Source: a virus. Taken from it: 27,627 nucleotides of DNA. Where the stretch lies: IMG/VR virus record IMGVR_UViG_3300045284_000110, positions 1 through 27,627 of that record; one strand, given 5' to 3'. Of this stretch, positions 25,776 through 27,358 are shown piece after piece. The position numbers and the translations under genes are program-made. The notes under the pieces were generated by a model. It saw only the letters and a list, made by a program, of their open reading frames with translations, ran no database searches and was not told where the DNA came from. Position 1 is the stretch's first letter. Every line of letters starts with the position of its first letter.

Positions 25776-26135
25776 ATGACAAGCCAACAGCGCGAATACC
25801 TGCGAGCCCAAGTCGACCAGGCGAAACGCACCACCCTCGGCCGGCACCACCGCTCAAGGCAAGGCTACTGCGTCGGTTGCGGAACCGACCTCGACAACTA
25901 CGCAGACGGATGCCGCAACTGCCAAGAACGCAAACGCAAACACCGCATACGCGCCCTACAAGCCGCCGTCGACATACGCGCAGCACGCCGCCGCCAAGGA
26001 CTCTGCACCGCCTGTGCCCGCCCGGTAGAAGACCCAACACCCGTATCGAACGCCGAGTGCCGCACATGCTGGGACCGACAACGAGGACGCCGAAGGTACG
26101 CGCAGAAACGGGGGAACAGTGGCGTGGACGGATGA
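25776..26135 (+). CDS. Tandem zinc-ribbon basic protein
   Basis: A 119-residue, Arg/Lys-rich protein with two zinc-binding units: C32-C35 with C46-C49, and C77-C80 with C95-C98. Each has the CxxC...CxxC form and they are joined by a basic helix (ERKRKHRIRALQAA). This looks like an internal duplication. GGGGGAAGGA directly precedes the ATG. The type is common upstream of replication genes in actinophages; nucleic-acid binding is inferred. Overlaps the next gene by 17 nt. Confidence 0.6.
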   Translation: MTSQQREYLRAQVDQAKRTTLGRHHRSRQGYCVGCGTDLDNYADGCRNCQERKRKHRIRALQAAVDIRAARRRQGLCTACARPVEDPTPVSNAECRTCWDRQRGRRRYAQKRGNSGVDG

Positions 26136-26436
26136 CAGGCTGTGGTGCCACCCAAAATACGTGGGACTCTCGAGCAGCGCGAAACTGGCGCTAAGACATT
26201 CGTTCGAGTACGCGTCCGGCATGGCAACCAACGGGAGGCTGACACATTCTCAGCAAATCGTGATAGGGGCGAACCGCAAAACGGCTGCTGAGCTTGTTGC
26301 TGCCGGCTGGTGGGACTTGAACGGTGAAGGACAGACCGTGCTGATTCACGACTGGGCGGAACACAACGGCGCCAGAGACGCCAGGAAGGTCAAAGAGCGC
26401 GAACGACTGAGGGCATACCGTGCAAGCAAACGCTAA
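26119..26436 (+). CDS. Replication-type winged-helix protein candidate
   Basis: A 105-residue protein with the opening WTDDRLWCHPKYVGLSSSAK common at the N-terminus of phage replisome-organiser proteins. It has a winged-helix pattern (LALRHSFEYAS, GRLTHSQQIVIGANRKTAAE, LVAAGWWDLNGEGQTVLIHD) and a basic tail (ARKVKERERLRAYRASKR). In many phages this domain is fused to a DnaD-like C-terminal part; here it ends and a GTAC cluster follows directly, a possible binding target. GTG start lies within the zinc-ribbon gene. Confidence 0.6.
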   Translation: MAWTDDRLWCHPKYVGLSSSAKLALRHSFEYASGMATNGRLTHSQQIVIGANRKTAAELVAAGWWDLNGEGQTVLIHDWAEHNGARDARKVKERERLRAYRASKR

Positions 26437-26441
26437 CCACC

Positions 26442-26514
26442 GTACTCAGTACCGTACGCGTACGCGAACAAGTACACACCCCGTACGAAAGCCCGTACGA
26501 AACGCAGTACGTAC
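26442..26514 (+). repeat. GTAC iteron-like cluster (possible origin or operator)
   Basis: Nine GTAC sites occur in 73 bp (starting at 26442, 26449, 26454, 26460, 26472, 26483, 26495, 26507 and 26511), several within CGTACG. Five of them are spaced 12, 11, 12 and 12 bp, roughly one helical turn. It is in a non-coding gap between a replication-type gene and another gene, the usual setting for iterons of a phage origin or an array of operator sites. Confidence 0.6.
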
Positions 26515-26519
26515 GCGGG

Positions 26520-26548
26520 TTGACGGGTGAAGGAACTACAACTACATA
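26520..26548 (+). promoter_or_regulatory. Candidate promoter next to GTAC cluster
   Basis: TTGACG (26520-26525), a 17-bp spacer and TACATA (26543-26548) form a promoter-like pair; CATAAA two bases on is an alternative -10. It starts 6 bp after the last GTAC site, so proteins bound there could control it. It would transcribe the inverted repeat and the gene at 26631. Confidence 0.45.
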
Positions 26549-26551
26549 AAA

Positions 26552-26619
26552 CCTTCCTTCCTTCCAACGTAGCTCTACACGCCAACCGCCACTTGACAGA
26601 CACGCCGAAGGAAGGAAGG
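26552..26619 (+). promoter_or_regulatory. Inverted repeat that can hide the ribosome binding site
   Basis: CCTTCCTTCCTTC (26552-26564) pairs perfectly over 13 bp with GAAGGAAGGAAGG (26607-26619), with a 42-nt loop. The right arm is the only purine-rich ribosome binding site before the GTG at 26631, so pairing would block translation. Unpairing, or slipping by 4 nt because the repeat unit is GGAA, would free it. A TTGACA (26593-26598) lies in the loop; a transcript starting downstream of it would lack the left arm. Confidence 0.6.
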
Positions 26620-26630
26620 ATCAGAAAACT

Positions 26631-27161
26631 GTGGACTGGCAGACCATCCGAAACACGTTCATGCGAGCCATCGGCGGCGACCCACCCGGCGCCGCCCTCG
26701 AAGACACGCTGATCCAGGCCTACTCGGAACACCCCGACGCCGTAGAACGATCCTTCGAGAAAATCACGCTCGCCCACGCCGCCGGCAAAATCCACTCACC
26801 GTGGGGAGCCCTCAAAGCCGAAGTCGCCAAAGCAGTCGACGCAGCCCGCAACCCCACACACGACGCCGGCAAAACCCGCTCAAGCGCACTAGCACGGGCC
26901 GAGAACTGGGTACGCACAACCGGCATCCACTACGACCGCGAAACCGAGGTCGAAGACGAGTTGTTCGGCGCTCGAGGATCGCTGCGCCAGCACCCGGAAA
27001 CCAAACCGCGCATCCTCGAACTCTGGAACGAACTACGCCCCCTCGGCGTCATCCTCGAACACGAAGCAGACGAACGCGGACGCCGCTACAGCGAACAGCG
27101 CGCCGCGCTCAAAGACGCACTGGCCGACCCCAAACTCGTCGCCAAACTCAAGAGCGCATAG
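26631..27161 (+). CDS. Hypothetical, possibly DnaD-like replication protein
   Basis: A 176-residue soluble protein. The N-terminal half is helical (WQTIRNTFMRAIGG, LEDTLIQAYSEHPDAVERSF, ITLAHAAGKIHSPWGALKAE) and resembles the DnaD/DnaB_2 helical domain, in which a run of helices ends in a short aromatic segment. The C-terminal half is charged helix (RILELWNELRPLGVILEHEA, EQRAALKDALAD). Together with the winged-helix protein before it, it could make up a split replisome organiser that loads host helicase. That is inferred from position and weak pattern match. Its GTG depends on a ribosome binding site in an inverted repeat. Confidence 0.4.
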   Translation: MDWQTIRNTFMRAIGGDPPGAALEDTLIQAYSEHPDAVERSFEKITLAHAAGKIHSPWGALKAEVAKAVDAARNPTHDAGKTRSSALARAENWVRTTGIHYDRETEVEDELFGARGSLRQHPETKPRILELWNELRPLGVILEHEADERGRRYSEQRAALKDALADPKLVAKLKSA

Positions 27162-27358
27162 TGGCCCGCTACCCCCGCTACCTCCGCCGCCAACACCAGG
27201 CCACCGACGAAGAAAACGTCAAGCGCGCCACCCGGGAAAACAACACCACCGAAGACCTCCCACAAGGCAGCGCCGGCCGACTCCGCGGCATACCCGCCAT
27301 CGCCCAAGGCGTACCAGGCGCCATCAACGGAACCGCACCACACCAATCCATCCGATAG
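27161..27358 (+). CDS. Small hypothetical protein, 65 residues
   Basis: GTG overlaps the previous stop by 1 nt. A basic start (ARYPRYLRRQHQA), a polar middle (DEENVKRATRENNTTED) and a Gly/Pro/Ala-rich end (GIPAIAQGVPGAINGTA). It is probably unstructured in part. No family recognised. The local strand is C-rich (27181-27240 holds 25 C and 14 G). Confidence 0.45.
   Translation: MARYPRYLRRQHQATDEENVKRATRENNTTEDLPQGSAGRLRGIPAIAQGVPGAINGTAPHQSIR

Follow-up and report, generated by a model that had tools for sequence, protein, structure and literature searches.

The replication origin of phage lambda (O/ori) is of a type in which iterons adjoin, or lie inside, the initiator gene. In Streptococcus phage Sfi21 a non-coding element is reported to act as an independent replication origin (PMC6356513), and in the cluster K mycobacteriophages inverted repeats (SAS/ESAS) are positioned just upstream of start codons, the ESAS arms being 17 nt in length, imperfect and present several times per genome (PMC12699233). 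Messenger RNA hairpins and RNA switches that sequester a ribosome binding site represent a further class with which an inverted repeat in a leader may be compared.

The locus described here is located in an uncultivated phage contig (a 27.6-kb virus record, analysed as a single stretch of 27,627 nt that is referred to as the window), in which terminase, capsid, exonuclease and methyltransferase genes are present. It consists of an inverted repeat situated between a replication-initiator-like gene (26119–26436) and a conserved orphan gene (26631–27161, product P0001). As in the lambda O/ori type, an initiator gene, an iteron-like array, an AT-rich patch and a possible partner gene are present (i.e. 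an O-ori-P-like order); however, the window repeats come after the stop codon of the initiator gene, an extra GGAA dyad is present, and P0001 matches no helicase loader by profile or by fold. The likeness to the Sfi21 origin (302-bp non-coding element, Per) comprises a non-coding position beside replication genes, an inverted repeat with a long spacer and an AT-rich tract, whereas the Sfi21 site follows a primase gene and its arms and genes are unrelated to those of the window. No Prim-Pol gene (PF09250) was found, directly upstream or elsewhere, in the window or in the records of two related contigs (L010 and L011), which may be incomplete, and no DnaB_C gene was found in the record of the window or those of its relatives; the Sfi21 parallel is thus one of architecture and not of homology. 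The repeat is similar to SAS/ESAS in being just upstream of a start codon, although the SAS consensus GGGATAGGAGCCC does not occur in the window within 2 mismatches. With sequestering hairpins the locus shares a Shine-Dalgarno (SD) sequence in a stem and an alternative upstream arm, while it differs from them in that the SD arm is absent from a third relative (L171) and that no Rfam family was matched in the window. On the basis of these comparisons and those presented below, all of them computational, we interpret the repeat, with moderate confidence, as part of a cis-acting, origin-type phage DNA element, the right arm of which appears to serve, in two phages, as a ribosome site as well.

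Architecture of the intergenic region

The initiator-like gene (plus strand, 105 aa) matched phrog_3926 (E 9.6e-11), phrog_9474 and phrog_2447 ('replication initiation protein'), in each case in the N-terminal part of these phage replication initiation families only, and its homologs in L010 and L171 displayed stronger matches to the same families. Downstream of it, at 26440–26518 (no strand assigned), lies a cluster of nine GTAC sites that includes CGTACG palindromes and a 12-nt tandem repeat (CCCGTACGAAAG). These candidate iterons, all nine of which fall within 73 nt (26442–26514), form the densest stretch of GTAC in the window, as compared to a simulated maximum of 4 per 90 nt. Two characteristics of iteron origins, namely an adjacent initiator gene and a cluster of repeats resembling initiator sites, are thus found here. 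The cluster is followed by a third arm, GTTGACGGGTGAAGGAA (arm0, 26519–26535, plus strand), which had been missed in the preliminary description, is kept in three phages and is predicted to be capable of pairing with the left arm of the inverted repeat. Adjoining the left arm is a spacer with TAC repeats (26535–26551, no strand assigned), a candidate unwinding tract of 17 nt only, with an AT content of 76% versus 36% for the contig; of the 27,597 windows of 30 nt, those that begin at 26530 and 26534 take 8th–9th place in AT richness. Conversely, the loop between the GGAA arms is 59% GC and in this respect unlike an unwinding region, and GC skew across the window provides no clear origin signal, both of which count against an origin.

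The inverted repeat itself is composed of 13-bp perfect GGAA arms, CCTTCCTTCCTTC (26552–26564) and GAAGGAAGGAAGG (26607–26619), separated by a 42-nt loop, exactly as first described. The feature annotation comprises a left arm (arm1) CCTTCCTTCCTTCC at 26552–26565 and a spacer at 26566–26606, neither with an assigned strand, and an SD-like right arm (arm2) GAAGGAAGGAAGGA at 26607–26620 on the plus strand. The GTG codon at 26631, 11 nt downstream of the end of the right arm, is the likely start of the next gene, since a relative's protein is similar from precisely this codon onwards. The right arm is the sole SD-like sequence ahead of that start, in agreement with its earlier designation as the ribosome site. 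The left arm does resemble the anti-SD sequence, as had also been pointed out, but merely as a consequence of its complementarity to the SD-like arm. Three sites in the window (7810, 21816 and 26552) carry perfect 13-bp arms whose loop does not exceed 80 nt, and at least one such repeat was present in about 10% of Markov-simulated windows of this size. Arm length by itself is therefore only mildly unusual; it is the GGAA composition, intergenic position and conservation that make the repeat notable, and the argument rests on conservation rather than on length. The simulated frequency would accommodate a functionless chance repeat in which a ribosome site is included by coincidence, yet one relative (L010) keeps both arms and their spacing and another (L171) keeps the left half, which renders this explanation very improbable.

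The orphan gene downstream (plus strand) encodes a protein of 176 aa for which AlphaFold produced an all-helical model (mean pLDDT 86.9, pTM 0.43). A structure search with this model returned no significant PDB fold match, and neither a Pfam match nor a significant PHROG match was obtained for the protein. From the position of its gene, P0001 is possibly a replication partner of the initiator. Homologs of P0001 are encoded after an initiator-like gene wherever examined, and only three other viral contigs, all from IMG/VR, encode one. Among INPHARED phages no DNA match was found to window positions 26100–27200 (distant mode) or 1–25000 (near mode), and tblastn against the same collection returned no match for P0001 or for its relatives in L011 and L171.

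Conservation of the left half among relatives

The three contigs encode proteins with 62–67% (L010), 36–38% (L011) and 32–34% (L171) identity to P0001. The pair of initiator and P0001 genes, with a gap between them, is common to three phages (the window, L010 and L171), and in all three this gap contains repeats after the initiator gene, followed by GTTGA.GG..TGAAGG, a spacer and CCTTCCTTCCTTCC. L010 displays the same inverted repeat as the window, with identical arm sequences, spacing and ribosome-site arrangement. In L171 the initiator gene is kept, as are the GTGAAGGAA arm, CCTTCCTTCCTTCC and a set of repeats whose sequence is particular to this contig. A right arm is missing, and the P0001-type gene has another leader, with the GTG start of this ORF lying just downstream of GCGCCGGGTTCTGGCGGGG. 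Between the non-coding left halves of L010 and L171 there is a 58-bp match at 79% identity (E 2.6e-8), whereas blastn yielded no match between the adjoining P0001-type genes. Iteron-like repeats of other sequence occupy the same place in both relatives, i.e. two copies of a 28-nt direct repeat in L010 and GTCAC/GTGAC repeats, identified by direct reading of the sequence, in L171. As the left half is kept in L171 in the absence of the right arm, the conserved unit is the left half and not the pairing with the ribosome site, and masking is not the conserved feature. In L171 a single ORF (2250–2825) fuses an initiator-like domain to an HNH endonuclease domain. L011 lacks both the gap between the initiator and P0001 genes and the GGAA arms, and carries GGTTCCnnGGAACC-type repeats close to where the initiator gene ends; the restriction of the locus to three phages and the lack of GGAA arms in L011 count against an origin.

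Ribosome-site pairing, internal promoter and repeat number

The first description had proposed that the arms can mask or expose the site at which ribosomes bind ahead of the next gene. As an RNA switch, the left arm would hide the ribosome site of the gene at 26631 and arm0 (GTTGACGGGTGAAGGAA) or a protein would free it, so that the ratio of initiator to partner is controlled. The 68-nt hairpin is predicted to fold at -23.5 kcal/mol (z -4.35), thus placing the ribosome site in a stable stem, with a computed pairing probability of 0.998 for the SD arm in the window leader; furthermore, the ability of the conserved arm0 to pair with the left arm would give two mutually exclusive folds. However, the favoured state differs between the two phages that possess both arms: in L010 the predicted minimum is the upstream fold, which pairs the left arm with the upstream arm, the pairing probability of the ribosome site being only 0.50. 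RNAalifold analysis of the three left halves recovered the arm0:arm1 stem with 0 pairs changed on both sides, and as the arms of the window and L010 are identical, no compensatory change supports pairing at the RNA level. With the right arm missing from L171, and with comparable repeats elsewhere following replication genes rather than preceding start codons (see below), we regard an RNA switch as rather unlikely. What stands of the masking proposal is the strong predicted hairpin that includes the ribosome site, and its identical arrangement in L010; as the main function of the repeat, masking is not upheld. A masking effect in the window leader is plausible, as predicted by the folding model, although not as a conserved design, and it may possibly be a role secondary to that of an origin-type element.

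Two further proposals concerned the loop and the repeat units. The hexamer TTGACA (26593–26598) was suggested to start a transcript devoid of the masking arm; however, a start near 26628 would remove both arms, the ribosome site included. At 17-nt spacing the -10 element would be AAGGAT, a weak match (3/6), TTGACA is absent in L010, and a sigma-70 promoter scan found no promoter. Slippage-prone contingency loci normally contain many more repeat units than the approximately 3.25 per arm observed here, a number that is equal in L010. A phase-variable tetranucleotide tract, in which slippage would alter expression, might be suggested by the GGAA repeats of the arms and by the unequal arms (6 versus 4 units) of another viral contig with this pattern (L005), which indicate that length can change over evolution; given the low and identical unit number, however, the proposal is unsupported and extremely improbable.

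Long-spacer repeats beside replication genes in other phages

The exact pattern with 13-bp arms was detected in only two other viral contigs: L004, which is one and the same as L010, and L005, where it is located after the stop codon of a Prim-Pol/DUF3987 gene. The version with 10-bp arms lies beside replication genes in five of six contigs; as all of these were found via the GGAA pattern itself, it is their location that is informative. Matches to the pattern in bacterial genomes resembled, upon inspection, other repeats or coding sequence, and no arm0–arm1 pattern was found among 395 genomes drawn from the class to which an Arthrobacter belongs. A hairpin of the form CCTTCCTTCC...GGAAGGAAGG with a conserved CGATTGGCATCG-like centre recurs in ten Arthrobacter-group genomes (L019, L025, L026, L028, L031, L034, L037, L040, L042 and L047) and is likely an unrelated repeat family.

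In a survey that started from proteins, a strong long-loop repeat followed the stop codon in 19 of 33 Prim-Pol/helicase loci versus 12 of 157 other genes (Fisher p 7e-10, the Prim-Pol loci being partly related and not all independent). The arms at the Prim-Pol loci differ (CTTCCTTCC, CTTCATTC, TGTCATTGTGTCA, AAACAATAGTAT and others) yet remain complementary; in the alignment of these dyads the arms are offset by one column from group to group, and the covariation refers to each locus's own best repeat and not to a formal column test. At the corresponding place Streptococcus phage SW1 carries a perfect 17-bp repeat, and in Sfi21 this position, which harbours a long dyad, bears the annotation 'origin of replication, 302 bp non-coding region'.

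Dyads were also found in the cluster AZ Arthrobacter phages and in Microbacterium phage Honk, which have a GAGAGAG core in common and the arms of which covary, those of cluster AZ being iteron-like. The Phives/Yang group resembles the window in its GTGAAGGAAG- and TTCCTTCC-type arms and a spacer of 30–42 nt, while the AZ/Honk elements differ from it in their core and in adjoining a serine integrase or exonuclease gene. In Phives (NC_071024) the two elements, at 38947–39195 (L172 2412–2660) and 23334–23502, are palindromic, intergenic, near-identical and unannotated, the dyad following the serine integrase gene and occurring again before the exonuclease gene; a CTATAAGAGAGAGAGTCCTTATAG-like core is kept in relatives and the arms covary among phages. 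In Honk (L181 2996–3058) a repeat with 22-nt arms (CGTCCCCCTCCTATTCCAGCTA) surrounds the GAGAGAG core downstream of the serine integrase gene. No paper describing the AZ/Honk dyads was found in the literature. Their position next to integrase and exonuclease genes rather than a primase gene counts against an origin, and the two copies in Phives also fit other DNA-binding roles; the element class may thus not act as an origin in all phages. The same context, together with the resemblance of arms built of short tandem units to protein sites, would suit an operator or binding site for a regulator of the phage, or a DNA-level element of another kind (for partition, packaging or recombination), instead of an origin. 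We consider this quite unlikely for the window, as the sites of the Prim-Pol phages and Sfi21 are tied to replication genes and an initiator-like gene precedes the site in the window.

The evidence counted in favour of an origin-type element comprises the initiator-like gene upstream, the unique GTAC cluster, the nearly extreme AT patch, the retention of the left half (but not the right arm) in three phages, the own-sequence repeats of the relatives, the location of the GGAA pattern beside replication genes in other contigs, the Prim-Pol-associated repeats, the Sfi21 and SW1 sites and the AZ dyads with covarying arms. The order is initiator gene, palindromic iteron-like array (26440–26518), purine arm GTGAAGGAA, short AT-rich TAC spacer and CCTTCCTTCCTTCC, to which the window and L010 add a further inverted copy, GGAAGGAAGG, after the CCTTCCTTCCTTCC arm; the literature search found no phage origin of the GGAAGGAAGG type. 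The initiator would bind the iterons and the AT-rich tract next to the GGAA arms would open, and the inverted purine/pyrimidine arms, acting as protein sites or single-strand folds, would fix the position of replisome loading. Since the distal arm is at the same time a ribosome site in two of the three phages, translation of the next gene may be dampened secondarily.

It is conceivable, albeit unlikely, that inverted GGAA/GTGAAGGAAG arms, spaced approximately 40–60 nt apart, constitute a recurring, undescribed origin module across unrelated replication proteins, the arms of which would coevolve with the initiator and, in a few phages, would additionally provide a replication gene with its ribosome site, thereby coupling translation to the opening of the origin. 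What looks like a ribosome-site switch can be the by-product of a DNA element. Most replication origins of environmental and actinobacterial phages are unmapped, and a recognisable dyad beside initiator or Prim-Pol genes, with arms that change yet remain paired, offers a concrete and testable handle for finding them, with possible counterparts in cultured Arthrobacter phages.
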